A program made the position numbers and the translations under genes. Below the pieces are notes generated by a model that was given only the letters and a program-made list of their open reading frames with translations, was not told the DNA's origin and searched no databases. 64,000 nt of DNA from assembly GCF_002080435.1 (NCBI RefSeq), contig NZ_CP020538.1, positions 2,041,501-2,105,500 on the forward strand. Reading direction: 5' to 3'. The stretch comes from Sphingobium herbicidovorans (GTDB lineage Bacteria; Pseudomonadota; Alphaproteobacteria; Sphingomonadales; Sphingomonadaceae). Positions 23,373 through 29,730 of the stretch are shown piece after piece; position 1 is the stretch's first letter, and every line of letters starts with the position of its first letter.

Positions 23373-23451
23373 ATGGGAAAAAAGATATGTTATGCTTTAT
23401 TCTGCGTCGGTGGCGCTGTTTCCCTTTCCGCTCATGCTGAAGAGGAATTTG
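23373..23451 (+). pseudogene. 5' fragment of a secreted-protein gene interrupted by the mobile element
   Basis: ATG at 23373 opens a typical signal peptide (MGKKICYALFCVGGAVSLSA, then HAEEEF) and is cut after 26 codons by the element; in the element it would stop at 23478-23480. Removing both element copies and two target repeats lets the frame continue at 29730 as ASNGEIAGSARLTARSG and beyond, but only about 20 mature codons remain before a terminator and the OPT gene. The rest is missing. It lies divergent to the phytase gene, where a TonB-dependent receptor would be expected; that identity is inference. Confidence 0.6.
23444..23451 (+). repeat. 8-bp target site repeat, left
   Basis: GGAATTTG directly before the left end of element copy 1. 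The same octamer occurs between the copies and after copy 2. Eight-bp duplications are typical of the IS1595 family. Confidence 0.9.
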
Positions 23452-23475
23452 GGCGATTATATACTTGTTTGGACC
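23452..23475 (+). repeat. Left terminal inverted repeat, copy 1
   Basis: 24 bp, GGCGATTATATACTTGTTTG then GACC; exact reverse complement of 26560-26583. Confidence 0.93.
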
Positions 23476-23538
23476 GCTGAATTTGCCGGGGATTATATCG
23501 CTGTACCGCCCGTTGAAATGAATGAGACGTATATTGGC

Positions 23539-23579
23539 AAAGGCCCCGCTCACTCCTTCTCGGGTGACGGGGCCTTTTT
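23539..23579. terminator. Bidirectional terminator in element left end, copy 1
   Basis: AAAGGCCCCG and CGGGGCCTTT pair perfectly around a 19-base loop, with a T-run on plus and the matching A-run for minus. It ends the minus-strand passenger gene and insulates the element from outside transcription. Confidence 0.82.
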
Positions 23580-23683
23580 CCGTTTCGGTTTCCCGGACTT
23601 CTCTGGCGGCTTCACCTTGAGTAGCCCGCCAAGGGCCTGAGCCAGACCAAGCGGCTTTAGACTGACCGGCTTTTCGTCAGGCA

Positions 23684-24625
23684 TCAGCTTAGCAGCTTCA
23701 GGATTTCCTCGTACTTGGCGAGCATATCCTTCAAATCAGCTATTTCATCAGGGCCAACATCGGCTGTTAGCTGTAAGCGGCCACCATCCACGTAGGCGGT
23801 GACGTTGAGTTTTCCGCCCTTGGCGGACGGCTTAGCAATGTCTCGCTTTTGCGTCGCATGTGGTGCGTCAACGAGTTCGACTTCGCTCATAGGTATCCCT
23901 GCAGGGCTTCCAAAAACGCGCAGGTGTGACCCATCTTCTGAAACCCAATCAACCTTCCGGGCTTCAAACTGGATCACCCCCCCCGATTCCCACTGCACAA
24001 AATCCCCGACTTTGACGTTCGGGACGCGCGGAGCCGGAGTTACACCAGGTTCGTTTTCGTCGGCCTTGTCCTCTTGTTGAGGAGATACCTTAGTGGAATC
24101 CTCGAGTCCTGCATAGGCTATTGTGGCTCGGTACGTCGCGATAACCTCGTCAGCCGCAGCCGGGCTGTAAGGTGCCTCGCCTCCTTCTTCTCTGTCGATC
24201 GTCAAATGCGTCCTTATGACGGTATCTGAAAGGCCGCTTGCAACATTGTAGCGATCCCAAAGCTCGCGATGAATCATTGGACCCAAGGCGGCGTTTTGAA
24301 TTGCCTCCTGCCTACGCTGAGAGTCGGGGCTGGTATCCAAAATTATTCGTTTTGCTGCGTCGGTAATCTGGAATTTTCTATTCTTCCCGGTGCCAGAATC
24401 CTGCATCAGTCCATATTGGATAAGCGAAGCAGCAGTCCGCCAGACCTTTCCATCGACCGACTTCATGCCCCACGCCTCAGCAAGAACTTGAACCCCCGCA
24501 GCGTGCGCATTGGCTTTGGAGTAAACCTCCTTTGCCCGTTCAACCGCCTTTCCCAAATCGAACATGGGGTAGGGCGGAGACCGGAAGCGCTTCGGTTTTT
24601 CGTTCTCATCAGACATCGGGGCCAT
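23684..24625 (-). CDS. Passenger gene of unknown function (winged-helix-like N-terminus), intact copy
   Basis: The 313-residue reading starts at MAPMSDENEKPKRF; other in-frame starts (24643 GTG, 24616 ATG) exist and no Shine-Dalgarno decides. Residues about 15-95 look like a winged-helix domain (AGVQVLAEAWGMKS, then LIQYGLMQDSGTGKNRKFQI). An acidic linker and a small beta-rich middle part (VPNVKVGDFVQWESGG) follow, and the C-terminus is amphipathic (DLKDMLAKYEEILKLL). The frame runs through an 8-C tract at 23977-23984; copy 2 has 7 C and is broken. It could be a regulator of the divergent tRNA/toxin genes or a transposition accessory protein. Confidence 0.75.
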   Translation of the reverse strand: MAPMSDENEKPKRFRSPPYPMFDLGKAVERAKEVYSKANAHAAGVQVLAEAWGMKSVDGKVWRTAASLIQYGLMQDSGTGKNRKFQITDAAKRIILDTSPDSQRRQEAIQNAALGPMIHRELWDRYNVASGLSDTVIRTHLTIDREEGGEAPYSPAAADEVIATYRATIAYAGLEDSTKVSPQQEDKADENEPGVTPAPRVPNVKVGDFVQWESGGVIQFEARKVDWVSEDGSHLRVFGSPAGIPMSEVELVDAPHATQKRDIAKPSAKGGKLNVTAYVDGGRLQLTADVGPDEIADLKDMLAKYEEILKLLS

Positions 24626-24885
24626 CACCTTTCCGCCCCTCACTATCGCCCTAGACCTTCCACGTCAAGTTACATGGATAGCTCTTAGACCTTTTTTAAC
24701 TTGCGCCATGTTCGACGGTTGGGCATAGGGGTCGGAGAAAGGAATGACCGATGCCGCCACCCGCTAGTTGACCCGCGCGCCATGGCACACTGACTTGCGA
24801 CGCGGATGAATGGCCTGAGGGTCAGGCCGGATCGGAGAGCTTAGGACCTCTACCGACCCGGTGGGCAAAACCCATTATCGACTGT
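24626..24885. other. Divergent control region of the element cargo, copy 1
   Basis: 260 bp between the unknown passenger gene and the tRNA-like gene, AT-poor apart from its start. It contains a perfect hairpin GGCCTGA-GGG-TCAGGCC (24812-24828) and TGGG-CAAAA-CCCA (about 24862-24874) just upstream of the tRNA-like 5' end. Promoters for both directions must lie here; I cannot place them with confidence. Identical in copy 2 (27765-28024). Confidence 0.6.
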
Positions 24886-24970
24886 GCCCCCGTGGTGGAA
24901 CGTAGACACGCCAGCATAGGATGCTGGTGGCCTATAGGCCGTCCCGATGCGAACTCGGGCGGGGGCACCA
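24886..24970 (+). tRNA. Class II tRNA-like gene, Leu-like body with anticodon AGG, copy 1
   Basis: 85 nt fold as a full cloverleaf. The acceptor GCCCCCG/CGGGGGC (7 perfect bp) has discriminator A and an encoded CCA. The D arm GTG/CAC has loop GAACGTAGA. The anticodon stem CCAGC/GCTGG has loop ATAGGAT (anticodon AGG, 24918-24920). The long variable arm is GGCC-TATA-GGCC, and the T stem CCCGA/TCGGG has loop TGCGAAC. The long variable arm, A14 and A73 are tRNA-Leu traits, but AGG would read the proline codon CCU. The D loop lacks one of the G18-G19 pair and T-loop position 55 is G, so elbow contacts are altered. It may be a specialised tRNA-like RNA rather than a decoder. Confidence 0.85.
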
Positions 24971-24990
24971 TTTTTATATATGAGATTTAG

Positions 24991-25392
24991 ATGCCGCTCA
25001 ACTTTTATCCCCGCGCGGGTCAGGTGCTGATGTGCGACTTTTCAGGCTTCAAGGTTCCTGAGATGGTGAAGCCGCGCCCTGTGGTGGTGGTATCGCCGCG
25101 TTTGCCGCGTAGGTCGGATGTGGTTGCTGTCGTGCCGATCAGTCTTACTGAGCCCACGCATTTGATGCCATATCATGTTAGGCTATCGAAGAATTATCAT
25201 CCGAGTGAGCCCGATGATTTGCCATGTTGGGCAATCGCCGATTTACTGATGAACCTGGGCATATACCGTCTCGATGGCTTCAAGGTTGGTCGTCGGAAAT
25301 GGGAGAACCCGCAGATGACGGGCGACGATCTAGCCGCCGTGAAAGATGCCGTTCTGCACGGCCTGGGGATGTTTCCAGTTGCCAACTCTTAA
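24991..25392 (+). CDS. PemK/MazF-type toxin-like protein, copy 1
   Basis: 133 residues. The N-terminal strand pattern GQVLMCDFSGF, then MVKPRPVVVVSPRLPRRSDVVAVVPIS, is the PemK/MazF (CcdB-fold) core, in which the RP-VVVVS segment and following VVAVVPIS are diagnostic; such proteins are usually mRNA or tRNA endoribonucleases. The ATG is 20 bp after the tRNA-like gene with no strong Shine-Dalgarno. No small antitoxin gene precedes or follows it, unlike classical pem/maz loci. Identical in copy 2. Confidence 0.82.
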   Translation: MPLNFYPRAGQVLMCDFSGFKVPEMVKPRPVVVVSPRLPRRSDVVAVVPISLTEPTHLMPYHVRLSKNYHPSEPDDLPCWAIADLLMNLGIYRLDGFKVGRRKWENPQMTGDDLAAVKDAVLHGLGMFPVANS

Positions 25393-25507
25393 CGCGATTC
25401 CTATATGGTGACTACTCCCGGTCATCGGGCTTTAAGACCTAGCTTGCTAGGCAGGCTGCTCAACGGACGATGACAAGTCCAGAGTAGCCTAGATATTGTC
25501 AGTGTCC

Positions 25508-25535
25508 GAAACCCCGTCAGAAATGGCGGGGTTTC
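25508..25535. terminator. Bidirectional terminator between toxin-like and transposase genes, copy 1
   Basis: GAAACCCCG, a 10-base loop, CGGGGTTTC. It sits 6 bp after the convergent transposase stop and terminates both genes. Upstream, CCTAGC-TT-GCTAGG (about 25438-25451) is a further short palindrome. Confidence 0.8.
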
Positions 25536-25541
25536 GTCATT

Positions 25542-26534
25542 TTAGCCTACCGTTTCGCTGTACGTCAGACGCTTCCCGATAGCGGTTTCAATCACTCGTA
25601 CTGTGCGAGCGCCATCGCGCTCCTTGCGCGTATTCCAGCGGCGATCAAACTCGGCGAGATAGCGCGGAAGGTGCTTGTCGCTGACATGATGGAAGGAGCC
25701 GATGATGCCCCGCTTGAGCAGGCTATGATAGCTTTCCGCGAAGTTGGTGTGGAAAATCACGCCGCGAACGAACGTCTTGCTGTGGTCGACCACATGATGG
25801 CCGTGGAAGTGCTCTGCAAGGCCCTCATAAGAAAGGTGGGCGTCTGTGATGATCGTCGCGCTCTGGTCAACGATAGGACGAGCGAGCGATTGCAGAGTGT
25901 TCTTGCGAACGTTCGGGACTTTGACGGTCTTAACGTCGCCCTCGCGGTCGATCAGCGTCATGACGGCGGTCTTCTTGCCAGCCTTGGCGGTGCGGTTCTT
26001 GTGGCGATTGTTCTTCAGCTTGCCGCCGACATACGTTTCATCCAGTTCCACGATGGCATCCGGGCCGCCGCCAAGCATGCCAGCCATAGGTTCTTGCAGC
26101 ATGGCCTCGCGAACGCGGTGGCACATGAACCAGGCCGACTTGTAGGTGACGTTCAGTTCCCGAGCGAGCTGGTTGGCCGAGACGCCCTTCTTGCTGCTGC
26201 ACATCAGGAAAATGGCATAAATCCACTTGCCGACCGGAATGTGAGCGCCCTCGAAGATACTCTTGCTGGTGACGCTGAACTTCTGACGGCACTTGCCGCA
26301 CTTCCACTGCTTGCGGACGGTCGGGATGACGTTCCCGTCCTTGTCCTTGCGCTTGTAGCTGACGGCGTAGACCTTCGTACCACCACACGAAATGATTTCG
26401 CCGGTCTCGGGATCGGCAGCATCAAGCGGGCAAACGACGTTTCCGTCCGGCCAGCGCAGATCGGCCAGGGCTTGCTGTGCGGCGGCTTCGTCAGTGAGGA
26501 AGCGGGCGATATCGGTGATGCCATTGATCTGCAT
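25542..26534 (-). CDS. IS1595 (ISXO2-like) family transposase, copy 1
   Basis: 330-residue DDE transposase. The N-terminal zinc ribbon has Cys35, Cys50, Cys79 and Cys82 (WKCGKCRQKF). A helix-turn-helix-like part follows (GVSANQLARELNVTYKSAW), then the catalytic core with VELDETYVGGK (Asp165), IITDAHLSYEG and the terminal NFAESYHSLLKRG. ATG at 26534, 26 bp inside the right terminal repeat. Identical in both copies, so both could be active. Confidence 0.95.
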   Translation of the reverse strand: MQINGITDIARFLTDEAAAQQALADLRWPDGNVVCPLDAADPETGEIISCGGTKVYAVSYKRKDKDGNVIPTVRKQWKCGKCRQKFSVTSKSIFEGAHIPVGKWIYAIFLMCSSKKGVSANQLARELNVTYKSAWFMCHRVREAMLQEPMAGMLGGGPDAIVELDETYVGGKLKNNRHKNRTAKAGKKTAVMTLIDREGDVKTVKVPNVRKNTLQSLARPIVDQSATIITDAHLSYEGLAEHFHGHHVVDHSKTFVRGVIFHTNFAESYHSLLKRGIIGSFHHVSDKHLPRYLAEFDRRWNTRKERDGARTVRVIETAIGKRLTYSETVG

Positions 26535-26559
26535 GGATCATTGTATGGCATACTTTCTT

Positions 26560-26583
26560 GGTCCAAACAAGTATATAATCGCC
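26560..26583 (-). repeat. Right terminal inverted repeat, copy 1
   Basis: 24 bp, exact reverse complement of the left repeat 23452-23475. Confidence 0.93.
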
Positions 26584-26591
26584 GGAATTTG
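26584..26591 (+). repeat. 8-bp target site repeat shared between the two copies
   Basis: GGAATTTG, a single octamer serving as right flank of copy 1 and left flank of copy 2. Confidence 0.9.
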
Positions 26592-26615
26592 GGCGATTAT
26601 ATACTTGTTTGGACC
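26592..26615 (+). repeat. Left terminal inverted repeat, copy 2
   Basis: Identical to 23452-23475. Confidence 0.93.
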
Positions 26616-26678
26616 GCTGAATTTGCCGGGGATTATATCGCTGTACCGCCCGTTGAAATGAATGAGACGTATATTGGC

Positions 26679-26719
26679 AAAGGCCCCGCTCACTCCTTCT
26701 CGGGTGACGGGGCCTTTTT
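26679..26719. terminator. Bidirectional terminator in element left end, copy 2
   Basis: Same AAAGGCCCCG/CGGGGCCTTT hairpin as in copy 1, with T-run. Confidence 0.82.
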
Positions 26720-26823
26720 CCGTTTCGGTTTCCCGGACTTCTCTGGCGGCTTCACCTTGAGTAGCCCGCCAAGGGCCTGAGCCAGACCAAGCGGCTTTAG
26801 ACTGACCGGCTTTTCGTCAGGCA

Positions 26824-27764
26824 TCAGCTTAGCAGCTTCAGGATTTCCTCGTACTTGGCGAGCATATCCTTCAAATCAGCTATTTCATCAGGGCCAACAT
26901 CGGCTGTTAGCTGTAAGCGGCCACCATCCACGTAGGCGGTGACGTTGAGTTTTCCGCCCTTGGCGGACGGCTTAGCAATGTCTCGCTTTTGCGTCGCATG
27001 TGGTGCGTCAACGAGTTCGACTTCGCTCATAGGTATCCCTGCAGGGCTTCCAAAAACGCGCAGGTGTGACCCATCTTCTGAAACCCAATCAACCTTCCGG
27101 GCTTCAAACTGGATCACCCCCCCGATTCCCACTGCACAAAATCCCCGACTTTGACGTTCGGGACGCGCGGAGCCGGAGTTACACCAGGTTCGTTTTCGTC
27201 GGCCTTGTCCTCTTGTTGAGGAGATACCTTAGTGGAATCCTCGAGTCCTGCATAGGCTATTGTGGCTCGGTACGTCGCGATAACCTCGTCAGCCGCAGCC
27301 GGGCTGTAAGGTGCCTCGCCTCCTTCTTCTCTGTCGATCGTCAAATGCGTCCTTATGACGGTATCTGAAAGGCCGCTTGCAACATTGTAGCGATCCCAAA
27401 GCTCGCGATGAATCATTGGACCCAAGGCGGCGTTTTGAATTGCCTCCTGCCTACGCTGAGAGTCGGGGCTGGTATCCAAAATTATTCGTTTTGCTGCGTC
27501 GGTAATCTGGAATTTTCTATTCTTCCCGGTGCCAGAATCCTGCATCAGTCCATATTGGATAAGCGAAGCAGCAGTCCGCCAGACCTTTCCATCGACCGAC
27601 TTCATGCCCCACGCCTCAGCAAGAACTTGAACCCCCGCAGCGTGCGCATTGGCTTTGGAGTAAACCTCCTTTGCCCGTTCAACCGCCTTTCCCAAATCGA
27701 ACATGGGGTAGGGCGGAGACCGGAAGCGCTTCGGTTTTTCGTTCTCATCAGACATCGGGGCCAT
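26824..27764 (-). pseudogene. Passenger gene of unknown function, frameshifted copy
   Basis: Same gene as 23684-24625 but with 7 rather than 8 C at 27117-27123. Reading the minus strand, the frame hits TGA directly after the G-run (QWESGG then stop), giving a protein of about 216 residues that keeps the winged-helix-like part and loses the last ~100 residues. An alternative is a functional truncated product, a slippage switch, or a homopolymer sequencing error. Confidence 0.8.
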
Positions 27765-28024
27765 CACCTTTCCGCCCCTCACTATCGCCCTAGACCTTCC
27801 ACGTCAAGTTACATGGATAGCTCTTAGACCTTTTTTAACTTGCGCCATGTTCGACGGTTGGGCATAGGGGTCGGAGAAAGGAATGACCGATGCCGCCACC
27901 CGCTAGTTGACCCGCGCGCCATGGCACACTGACTTGCGACGCGGATGAATGGCCTGAGGGTCAGGCCGGATCGGAGAGCTTAGGACCTCTACCGACCCGG
28001 TGGGCAAAACCCATTATCGACTGT
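27765..28024. other. Divergent control region of the element cargo, copy 2
   Basis: Identical to 24626-24885, including the GGCCTGA-GGG-TCAGGCC hairpin. Confidence 0.6.
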
Positions 28025-28109
28025 GCCCCCGTGGTGGAACGTAGACACGCCAGCATAGGATGCTGGTGGCCTATAGGCCGTCCCGATGCGAACTCGGGCG
28101 GGGGCACCA
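28025..28109 (+). tRNA. Class II tRNA-like gene, anticodon AGG, copy 2
   Basis: Identical in all 85 positions to 24886-24970; the cloverleaf, long variable arm, A73 and encoded CCA are all preserved. Confidence 0.85.
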
Positions 28110-28129
28110 TTTTTATATATGAGATTTAG

Positions 28130-28531
28130 ATGCCGCTCAACTTTTATCCCCGCGCGGGTCAGGTGCTGATGTGCGACTTTTCAGGCTTCAAGGTTCCTGA
28201 GATGGTGAAGCCGCGCCCTGTGGTGGTGGTATCGCCGCGTTTGCCGCGTAGGTCGGATGTGGTTGCTGTCGTGCCGATCAGTCTTACTGAGCCCACGCAT
28301 TTGATGCCATATCATGTTAGGCTATCGAAGAATTATCATCCGAGTGAGCCCGATGATTTGCCATGTTGGGCAATCGCCGATTTACTGATGAACCTGGGCA
28401 TATACCGTCTCGATGGCTTCAAGGTTGGTCGTCGGAAATGGGAGAACCCGCAGATGACGGGCGACGATCTAGCCGCCGTGAAAGATGCCGTTCTGCACGG
28501 CCTGGGGATGTTTCCAGTTGCCAACTCTTAA
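28130..28531 (+). CDS. PemK/MazF-type toxin-like protein, copy 2
   Basis: Identical to the copy at 24991-25392: 133 residues with the GQVLMCDFSGF and RPVVVVSPRLP core, 20 bp downstream of the tRNA-like gene, no adjacent antitoxin. Two identical doses of a toxin-like gene suggest that it is tightly controlled or harmless in this host. Confidence 0.82.
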   Translation: MPLNFYPRAGQVLMCDFSGFKVPEMVKPRPVVVVSPRLPRRSDVVAVVPISLTEPTHLMPYHVRLSKNYHPSEPDDLPCWAIADLLMNLGIYRLDGFKVGRRKWENPQMTGDDLAAVKDAVLHGLGMFPVANS

Positions 28532-28646
28532 CGCGATTCCTATATGGTGACTACTCCCGGTCATCGGGCTTTAAGACCTAGCTTGCTAGGCAGGCTGCTC
28601 AACGGACGATGACAAGTCCAGAGTAGCCTAGATATTGTCAGTGTCC

Positions 28647-28674
28647 GAAACCCCGTCAGAAATGGCGGGGTTTC
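28647..28674. terminator. Bidirectional terminator between toxin-like and transposase genes, copy 2
   Basis: Same GAAACCCCG/CGGGGTTTC hairpin as in copy 1. Confidence 0.8.
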
Positions 28675-28680
28675 GTCATT

Positions 28681-29673
28681 TTAGCCTACCGTTTCGCTGT
28701 ACGTCAGACGCTTCCCGATAGCGGTTTCAATCACTCGTACTGTGCGAGCGCCATCGCGCTCCTTGCGCGTATTCCAGCGGCGATCAAACTCGGCGAGATA
28801 GCGCGGAAGGTGCTTGTCGCTGACATGATGGAAGGAGCCGATGATGCCCCGCTTGAGCAGGCTATGATAGCTTTCCGCGAAGTTGGTGTGGAAAATCACG
28901 CCGCGAACGAACGTCTTGCTGTGGTCGACCACATGATGGCCGTGGAAGTGCTCTGCAAGGCCCTCATAAGAAAGGTGGGCGTCTGTGATGATCGTCGCGC
29001 TCTGGTCAACGATAGGACGAGCGAGCGATTGCAGAGTGTTCTTGCGAACGTTCGGGACTTTGACGGTCTTAACGTCGCCCTCGCGGTCGATCAGCGTCAT
29101 GACGGCGGTCTTCTTGCCAGCCTTGGCGGTGCGGTTCTTGTGGCGATTGTTCTTCAGCTTGCCGCCGACATACGTTTCATCCAGTTCCACGATGGCATCC
29201 GGGCCGCCGCCAAGCATGCCAGCCATAGGTTCTTGCAGCATGGCCTCGCGAACGCGGTGGCACATGAACCAGGCCGACTTGTAGGTGACGTTCAGTTCCC
29301 GAGCGAGCTGGTTGGCCGAGACGCCCTTCTTGCTGCTGCACATCAGGAAAATGGCATAAATCCACTTGCCGACCGGAATGTGAGCGCCCTCGAAGATACT
29401 CTTGCTGGTGACGCTGAACTTCTGACGGCACTTGCCGCACTTCCACTGCTTGCGGACGGTCGGGATGACGTTCCCGTCCTTGTCCTTGCGCTTGTAGCTG
29501 ACGGCGTAGACCTTCGTACCACCACACGAAATGATTTCGCCGGTCTCGGGATCGGCAGCATCAAGCGGGCAAACGACGTTTCCGTCCGGCCAGCGCAGAT
29601 CGGCCAGGGCTTGCTGTGCGGCGGCTTCGTCAGTGAGGAAGCGGGCGATATCGGTGATGCCATTGATCTGCAT
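28681..29673 (-). CDS. IS1595 (ISXO2-like) family transposase, copy 2
   Basis: Identical to the 330-residue transposase at 25542-26534, with zinc ribbon and DDE-type core intact. Confidence 0.95.
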   Translation of the reverse strand: MQINGITDIARFLTDEAAAQQALADLRWPDGNVVCPLDAADPETGEIISCGGTKVYAVSYKRKDKDGNVIPTVRKQWKCGKCRQKFSVTSKSIFEGAHIPVGKWIYAIFLMCSSKKGVSANQLARELNVTYKSAWFMCHRVREAMLQEPMAGMLGGGPDAIVELDETYVGGKLKNNRHKNRTAKAGKKTAVMTLIDREGDVKTVKVPNVRKNTLQSLARPIVDQSATIITDAHLSYEGLAEHFHGHHVVDHSKTFVRGVIFHTNFAESYHSLLKRGIIGSFHHVSDKHLPRYLAEFDRRWNTRKERDGARTVRVIETAIGKRLTYSETVG

Positions 29674-29698
29674 GGATCATTGTATGGCATACTTTCTT

Positions 29699-29722
29699 GG
29701 TCCAAACAAGTATATAATCGCC
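29699..29722 (-). repeat. Right terminal inverted repeat, copy 2
   Basis: Identical to 26560-26583. Confidence 0.93.
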
Positions 29723-29730
29723 GGAATTTG
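29723..29730 (+). repeat. 8-bp target site repeat, right
   Basis: GGAATTTG following copy 2; third occurrence of the octamer. Confidence 0.9.

Follow-up and report, generated by a model that had tools for sequence, protein, structure and literature searches.

Two copies of a jumping gene in Sphingobium herbicidovorans carry a leucine-type tRNA with a proline anticodon, and related modules carry other mismatched tRNAs in the same slot. What does such a gene do in a mobile element? The recurrence hints at an RNA directed against protein synthesis, as a weapon or as a switch. The reading put forward here is that of a mobile, protein-repressed, translation-interfering RNA in a toxin-antitoxin-like module, the tRNA-like part being one of its domains; we regard it as possible rather than probable. 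Its computed basis consists of the element anatomy, the Leu likeness of the body, the conservation and the recurring mismatch, all of them solid, and of the codon bias of the mini-ORFs, which is less so.

Anatomy of the element pair

The window, i.e. the whole stretch of 64,000 nucleotides that was analysed, contains two IS1595-family elements in tandem, which possess the DDE transposase, the terminal repeats (TIRs) and the 8-bp duplication of that family. Each copy contains ORF A on the minus strand, a leader with the tRNA-like gene and a PemK-like gene on the plus strand, and the transposase on the minus strand:

23444..23451, 26584-26591 and 29723-29730: 8-bp repeat GGAATTTG, the target-site duplication
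23452..26583: IS1595-family element, copy 1, 3132 bp, with 24-nt perfect TIRs GGCGATTATATACTTGTTTGGACC
23684..24643, minus strand: ORF A, copy 1, 319 aa, divergent regulator-like protein, N-terminal part predicted to be winged-helix-like
24701..24729, plus strand: possible promoter TTGCGC-17-CATAGG, read by eye
24751..24771, plus strand: mini-ORF MPPPAS*, with the Shine-Dalgarno-like stretch GGAGAAAGGA in front
24819..24877, plus strand: leader block of 59 nt, hairpin with loop CTTAGGAC, identical in the relative L003
24886..24970, plus strand: tRNA-like domain, copy 1, Leu-type body, anticodon AGG (ARAGORN)
24971..24975, plus strand: T5 run immediately 3' of CCA (sequence)
24991..25392, plus strand: PemK/MazF-like toxin gene, copy 1, 133 aa (PF02452, E=4.3e-10)
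25542..26534, minus strand: IS1595 transposase, copy 1, 330 aa (PF12762 / NF033547)
26592..29722: IS1595-family element, copy 2, 3131 bp, in tandem with copy 1, with 24-nt perfect terminal repeats
26824..27782, minus strand: ORF A, copy 2, interrupted, two overlapping frames of 222 aa and 102 aa (two separate search matches)
28025..28109, plus strand: tRNA-like domain, copy 2, identical (ARAGORN)
28130..28531, plus strand: PemK-like gene, copy 2 (ORF list, tblastn)
28681..29673, minus strand: IS1595 transposase, copy 2 (ORF list)

The tandem copies and the thrice-present 8-bp repeat (23444-29730) form a pattern as after insertion beside a copy or recombination. In copy 2, ORF A is split while the tRNA-like gene is intact. 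With its transposase, TIRs and 8-bp duplications the pair resembles other IS1595-family elements with passengers, from which it differs in what it carries: a regulator, an RNA/tRNA-like module and PemK.

Structure and body type of the tRNA-like domain

ARAGORN called an 85-nt tRNA-Pro(agg) in both copies (score 103.6). Only three tRNAs in total were called across 100 dinucleotide-preserving shuffles of the 64-kb window, so that the call is not a matter of chance. The first-pass annotation, made from the letters alone, had described a cloverleaf with acceptor, anticodon and T stems of 7, 5 and 5 bp, a 4-bp variable helix, A73 and an encoded CCA, identical in the two copies, and ARAGORN, the fold and the sequence confirmed each of these features. 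The variable helix reaches 5 bp if a T-G pair is counted and the D stem has just 3 bp. The minimum-free-energy fold of the RNA is the cloverleaf (z -3.57), and none of 200 shuffles was equally stable. The acceptor helix is extendable to 9 bp via U-1:A73 and G-2:C74, and 9 bp are found in L003 too. The anticodon arm, CCAGCAU-AGG-AUGCUGG, forms an inverted repeat free of mismatches, and its loop ATAGGAT could be closed to an AGG triloop via U33-A37 and A32-U38.

The elbow had been described as altered, with a short D loop and a G at T-loop position 55, and this is what was found: in place of the GG of the aligned native Leu tRNA the D loop has a single G, position 55 in the T loop (TGCGAAC) is G, and the G18-G19 / U55-C56 elbow of tRNA-Leu is lacking. 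The Rfam tRNA model reported the window copy neither at the gathering score nor at E<=10, and in a search of the whole genome RF00005 gave 45 matches, none of them the tRNA-like gene, which does not exceed the 29-bit covariance threshold. This outcome speaks against an ordinary tRNA and, together with the broken elbow, supports the claim of the first-pass annotation that the RNA is not an ordinary decoder. Judged by its sequence, the copy in the window probably does not decode; since its elbow is broken, a structured 3' end or a bait would be the likelier role of the domain.

Body types were assigned by nearest-neighbour comparison with the 45 tRNAs of the own genome. The four nearest to the window body were all Leu, and no Pro tRNA was found in the top seven; the long variable arm does not belong to a class I Pro body either. 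In a leave-one-out control on native tRNAs, Leu was recovered in 5/5 cases, Ser in 3/4 and the correct type overall in 26/38; with 8/9 for Leu and Ser against 26/38 overall, the method is usable for class II bodies and weak for class I. The domain thus combines the class II body, A73 and CCA of tRNA-Leu with AGG in place of a Leu anticodon. The proposal of a Leu-type class II body with the Pro anticodon AGG is borne out by the top four matches and by the ARAGORN anticodon.

The nearest relative

A family-wide DNA search with the tRNA-like RNA covered 298 genomes, of which three had a match: the own genome, one with an ordinary tRNA-Leu and the one containing the locus L003. A class-wide DNA search recovered the window and 14 further loci, each an ordinary tRNA-Leu gene, which were set aside. 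Searched as DNA in plasmids and phages, the RNA had no match. An exact 17-base pattern had two matches in viral contigs, which were discarded as having no tRNA and as unrelated by eye.

L003 is 82% identical to the window over the tRNA and 89% identical over 154 nt with the longer query (leader plus tRNA). The 59-nt upstream leader block shows no change. Within the tRNA 15/84 columns differ, 0/17 of them in the anticodon arm; this arm and the acceptor stem are unchanged whereas the other loops are changed. Double compensation is seen in one pair each of the D and T stems, and one variable-arm pair is lost. The cloverleaf had been thought to be selected, and covariation named as the check; the comparison with L003 favours selection through the two double-compensated pairs and the unchanged anticodon arm, the lost variable-arm pair notwithstanding. 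CCA is not encoded in L003, and T5 lies one base 3' of the extended acceptor stem. The D loop keeps GG and U55 is kept as well; the T loop CTCAATA has C at position 54.

The mini-ORF of L003, MPPPV*, has its first four codons in common with that of the window. Divergent to the tRNA lies a distant homologue of ORF A (29% identity; one Tistrella protein is matched by both), and the gene 3' of the tRNA is a 171-aa ORF that is weakly YjaZ-like, below the family cut-off, and not PemK. In the 9.6 kb around L003 neither an IS1595 transposase nor an IS1595 terminal repeat was found (<=7 mismatches allowed). The RNA is therefore not specific to IS1595 elements, among which the first-pass annotation had proposed to look for homologues, and similar modules occur in IS1-like elements.

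ORF A and its divergent tRNAs

The ORF A profile had 200 protein matches at E<=0.001 (the best 120 of 200 displayed), and no Pfam, NCBIfam or PADLOC family was assigned to it. Its AlphaFold model has a mean pLDDT of 75.8. Foldseek gave no match at E<=0.001, and winged-helix proteins, CadC (E 0.1) among them, make up the low-rmsd local matches, so that DNA binding by ORF A is a reasonable guess only. ORF A was found in 10/385 genomes of a class sample, 20/397 of a family sample and 8/398 of a phylum sample; the own genome is included in each of the three and one other genome in two. One relative, with no tRNA, was found in viral contigs and one in plasmids (Tistrella), where a fourth query found none; one query of phages found none.

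Leaving aside the own genome, the survey comprised 36 ORF A loci, one of them in a viral contig. A tRNA divergent to ORF A was called at five of them, by ARAGORN at L003, L041, L043 and L048 and by Rfam at L047. No tRNA was called at the other 31 in the stretches examined, mostly a 1.5-kb flank. L076 was left out of the counts, its tRNA-Gln lying far downstream of ORF A and on its far side. The tRNA slot of L044 (~2255-2330, 3' of the hairpin) holds what looks by eye like a degenerate mini-tRNA, with T arm and acceptor and no clear D arm.

Anticodon and body are clearly mismatched in the window and in four of the five tRNA-bearing ORF A loci. L003 and the window combine a Leu body with AGG (Pro), and L047 a Leu-type body with GCG (Arg). 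L043 and L048 have Ser-type bodies with the anticodon UUA, which reads the ochre codon UAA, and the loop CTTTAAA is common to both though the remaining tRNA has diverged. L041 has an Arg-like body with CGU (Thr), and is ambiguous since an alternative register gives UCG, cognate for Arg. With Rfam scores from 53.5 to 65.4 bits, L041, L043, L047 and L048 are well-formed tRNAs.

Mismatched tRNAs in IS1-like elements

Thirty-six IS1-like loci were examined, namely 13 + 15 from viral contigs, obtained by transposase searches, and 8/9 plasmid matches; ARAGORN was run on 36/36 and Rfam on 18. A tRNA lies inside the element at two of them, L146 and L164, behind a similar leader and with no ORF A as divergent neighbour; the remaining loci have no tRNA within an identified element. 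Four of 37 further plasmid records were examined with ARAGORN and had no tRNA. L146 (63.5 bits with Rfam; terminal repeats at 2445 and 5559) is counted as mismatched for its Ser anticodon GCU on a class I body. L164, for which the left terminal repeat alone was found, has a Glu-like body with the anticodon AGU (Thr).

The mismatched tRNAs recur in one setting. Among the eight tRNA loci (the window, L003, L041, L043, L047, L048, L146 and L164) the divergent neighbour is ORF A in six, and five of the seven clearly mismatched tRNAs have Leu- or Ser-type bodies (the window, L003, L043, L047 and L048; not L146 and L164). LeuRS and SerRS do not read the anticodon. With this recurrence, and with bodies whose synthetases ignore the anticodon, the question becomes testable with small constructs. 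Two identified terminal repeats bound four of the eight loci (the window, L041, L048 and L146); one imperfect repeat was found at L043, and no element was identified at L003 and L047.

A natural control is provided by L167:4852-4931, a cognate-looking tRNA-Pro outside an IS1-like element whose terminal repeat begins two bases past the CCA. L167, which abuts the TIR, and L141 and L168, which represent one place, were not counted as they lie outside the element ends; they look cognate, the Thr call weakly so. L152, decayed and outside the element, was not counted either. Dropped before counting were L162 and L170, with tRNAs far from the transposase, and L172 and L177, mismatched-looking tRNAs for which no bounding TIR pair was found. 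L177:5278-5363 has a Leu-like body with the Ser anticodon GGA near an IS1595-type transposase, and another tRNA-like stretch seems to follow it; L172:3117-3192 has an Arg-like body with the Ala anticodon CGC near an IS1-type transposase. Since nearest-neighbour calls are unreliable for class I, the body types given for L041, L146, L164 and L172 should be taken as no more than leads. Two further IS1-like elements (L083:4539-4772 and L081:5391-5621) have a small protein of 76-77 aa with a GGxARAxxxTPExR-like stretch and no Pfam family.

The leader and its mini-ORF

The leaders follow a common plan, read by eye, of a Shine-Dalgarno sequence, a mini-ORF and a strong hairpin, often with a GGTRGGC-like stretch. 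This plan is seen in most tRNA loci (it was unrecognised in L047) and in several ORF A loci with no tRNA. Mini-ORFs were read by eye in 25 leaders, from 22/36 ORF A loci, the window, L146 and L164. An AGR-AGR pair occupies codons 2-5 in 11 of these 25 (L041, L042, L044, L045, L048, L059, L063, L068, L073, L120 and L124). Among Arg codons in the first seven codons, AGA/AGG account for 27/29 as against 6-14% in four ORF reference sets, a count that is no clean test given the relatedness of the loci and starts picked by eye; AGGAGG is moreover Shine-Dalgarno-like, AGAAGA less so. The AGR excess is thus a strong hint and not a clean statistic. The mini-ORFs of the window and L003 begin with M-P-P-P and have no AGR pair. 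Such a pair is present in just two of the tRNA-bearing loci, L041 and L048, so that the mini-ORF signature and a mismatched tRNA rarely coincide.

Start-stop minigenes (M*, MR*, MG*) occur in some Sphingomonadaceae loci, the family being taken from a single annotated match. At L060-L062, L064-L066, L069, L070 and L072, ORF A faces a leader that mostly has a minigene of the start-stop type or a very short one (M*, MR*, MG*, MLDV*), and in most of these loci a small basic protein, MVWVCSYCRLRFGRVEHVRAHW-like by eye, comes next. At L071, L074 and L075 ORF A faces a 5' hairpin, followed in L074 and L075 by a small protein that looks YjzC-like by eye. A promoter scan listed none for the window leader, and a terminator scan limited to loops of 3-8 listed none. 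The consensus fold of 13 leaders is weak, with just 7 pairs of hairpin 1, each showing some two-sided change, and near-zero energy. A UAGGA common to the hairpin loop and the anticodon loop was considered as a general rule and dropped, being absent in L043 and L048.

The PemK-like neighbour

The PemK-like gene and the RNA are adjacent on the same strand, 20 nt apart, and some RNA antitoxins pair with toxins of the PemK/MazF fold. The tRNA-like RNA could accordingly be an antitoxin, decoy or substrate of the adjacent toxin, as in a type III toxin-antitoxin pair, and the first-pass annotation had offered the role of decoy or target. In type III systems the RNA antitoxin is conserved beside its toxin; here PemK is not conserved with the RNA. 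None of 15 PemK relatives in genome contigs has such a tRNA (L016 has an ordinary tRNA-Met), and PemK was absent by tblastn (E<=1e-3) around L003, L041, L043, L044, L047, L048, L146 and L164. PemK was rejected as a conserved partner on both counts, the decoy proposal is left unsupported, and a type III-like pair is very unlikely.

Possible functions of the module

In the reading put forward here, the tRNA-like gene would be the 3' domain of an RNA of ~230 nt, presumably made in one piece from an IS passenger module. This module would consist of ORF A, a probable DNA-binding repressor, and of the divergent RNA with its Shine-Dalgarno sequence, mini-ORF, hairpin and tRNA-derived 3' domain. As long as ORF A is present, the RNA would be silent; once ORF A is lost, it would engage ribosomes and tRNAs via the mini-ORF in a CreT-like manner and might be toxic. 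In lineages with an intact tRNA, the mismatch of anticodon and body could add miscoding, provided that the tRNA is charged and finds its target. In the window lineage, the domain, which retains the cloverleaf and the AGG arm and has a broken elbow, would derive from a tRNA-Leu and more likely act as bait or as a structured 3' end than as a decoder. The likeness of the body to Leu tRNAs, the conservation in L003, the divergent ORF A, the seven clear mismatches and the AGR mini-ORFs argue for such a module. Against it, no tRNA was called in 31/36 ORF A loci, and in several of them the leader is followed by a small protein, so that it may be simply an attenuator. The lack of an AGR pair in the window and L003, its rare coincidence with a mismatched tRNA, the empty promoter scan, the lack of a fold match for ORF A and the weak consensus fold of the leaders also count against it. 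A leader acting as attenuator, with the tRNA-like part as a stable 3' end, processing site or terminator and an anticodon that decodes nothing, is likewise possible and nearly as likely as a protein-repressed RNA. It would fit the broken elbow, the 9-bp G+C-rich acceptor stem followed by T5, with the extension present in both the window and L003, and the retention of stem and T5 in L003 though CCA is not encoded there; a terminator-like hairpin also occupies the tRNA slot of several tRNA-less elements (by eye), and small-protein genes lie 3' of the leader in several ORF A loci. It would leave unexplained why the tRNAs of several lineages combine misfitting anticodons and bodies and why the anticodon arm, with the acceptor stem, is unchanged between the window and L003 while other loops changed, and the terminator scan with its loops of 3-8 does not favour it.

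A stronger form of the protein-repressed RNA, in which two IS families carry an anti-translation RNA that joins a CreT-like, tRNA-sequestering mini-ORF to a deliberately mismatched tRNA (a missense or ochre suppressor) and serves in addiction or exclusion, is unlikely, its odds being reduced by the coincidence of tandem AGR and a called tRNA in L041 and L048 only. Improbable, too, is a functional miscoding tRNA that would be charged by LeuRS irrespective of its anticodon and insert Leu at Pro CCU codons. The Leu-type body, A73, CCA and long variable arm are as expected of such a tRNA, and so are the Leu- or Ser-type bodies of most clear mismatches; the lost D-loop G, the changed T loop, the missing Rfam report and a possible AGG triloop count against it, and an altered D/T elbow is expected to harm leucylation. 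Allo-tRNAs with foreign anticodons do insert Ser in E. coli, according to the available text of a review (PMC7609411). CCU-to-Leu mistranslation is the less likely for the window copy with its altered elbow, whereas miscoding would be more plausible for the intact tRNAs of L043, L047 and L048. Next in rank and about as improbable is a passenger in decay: the element would have picked up a tRNA-Leu gene of its host, which would now be drifting. The broken elbow, the unencoded CCA and lost variable-arm pair of L003 and the mere remnant in L044 (by eye) would agree with decay; the compensated pairs, the unchanged anticodon arm and 59-nt upstream block, and the UUA loop CTTTAAA that is the same in two diverged Ser-type copies would not.

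Comparison with known systems

The literature yielded no account of such a tRNA passenger, an absence that carries little weight as subscription papers were thinly covered. The closest parallel to the leader is CreT of Haloarcula hispanica, which, in the available text, needs a strong Shine-Dalgarno sequence, a start codon, two consecutive AGA codons and a stem-loop, and is repressed by the CRISPR effector with the CreA RNA (PMC8501985). Many relatives of the leader resemble this part of CreTA in their Shine-Dalgarno sequence, AUG, tandem rare Arg codons and stem-loop (PMC8501985). The window itself has the Shine-Dalgarno-like stretch and the hairpin, with the Pro codons of MPPP instead of the rare Arg pair, and its neighbour is a protein by which repression is a guess. 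A tRNA gene as a natural part of CreT is not mentioned in the available text (PMC8501985). Going by the rare-Arg mini-ORFs, RNA toxins of the CreT kind may not be confined to CRISPR and could also occur under the control of a repressor protein.

Bacterial tRNAs with anticodons that misfit their bodies are known as allo-tRNAs, for which 35/64 anticodons were seen (Mukai et al. 2017, as summarized in the available text of PMC7609411). Among them is a pseudogene that overlaps with a transposon-related gene, and some are unusable for translation in E. coli; SerRS does not read the anticodon (PMC7609411). The tRNAs described here share with allo-tRNAs and allo-tRNA(UAU)-like sequences the misfit of anticodon and body and, in the window and L003, an extra base pair at -1. 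As far as that text goes, the acceptor branches of allo-tRNAs are of the 8/4 or 9/3 type, and their identity is Ser in most cases and Ala in some (PMC7609411). Here, by contrast, the cloverleafs are 7/5, in the window extendable to 9/5, and the bodies are Leu, Ser, Glu-like or Arg-like; most of the genes lie divergent to ORF A, and most are preceded by a leader with mini-ORF and hairpin.
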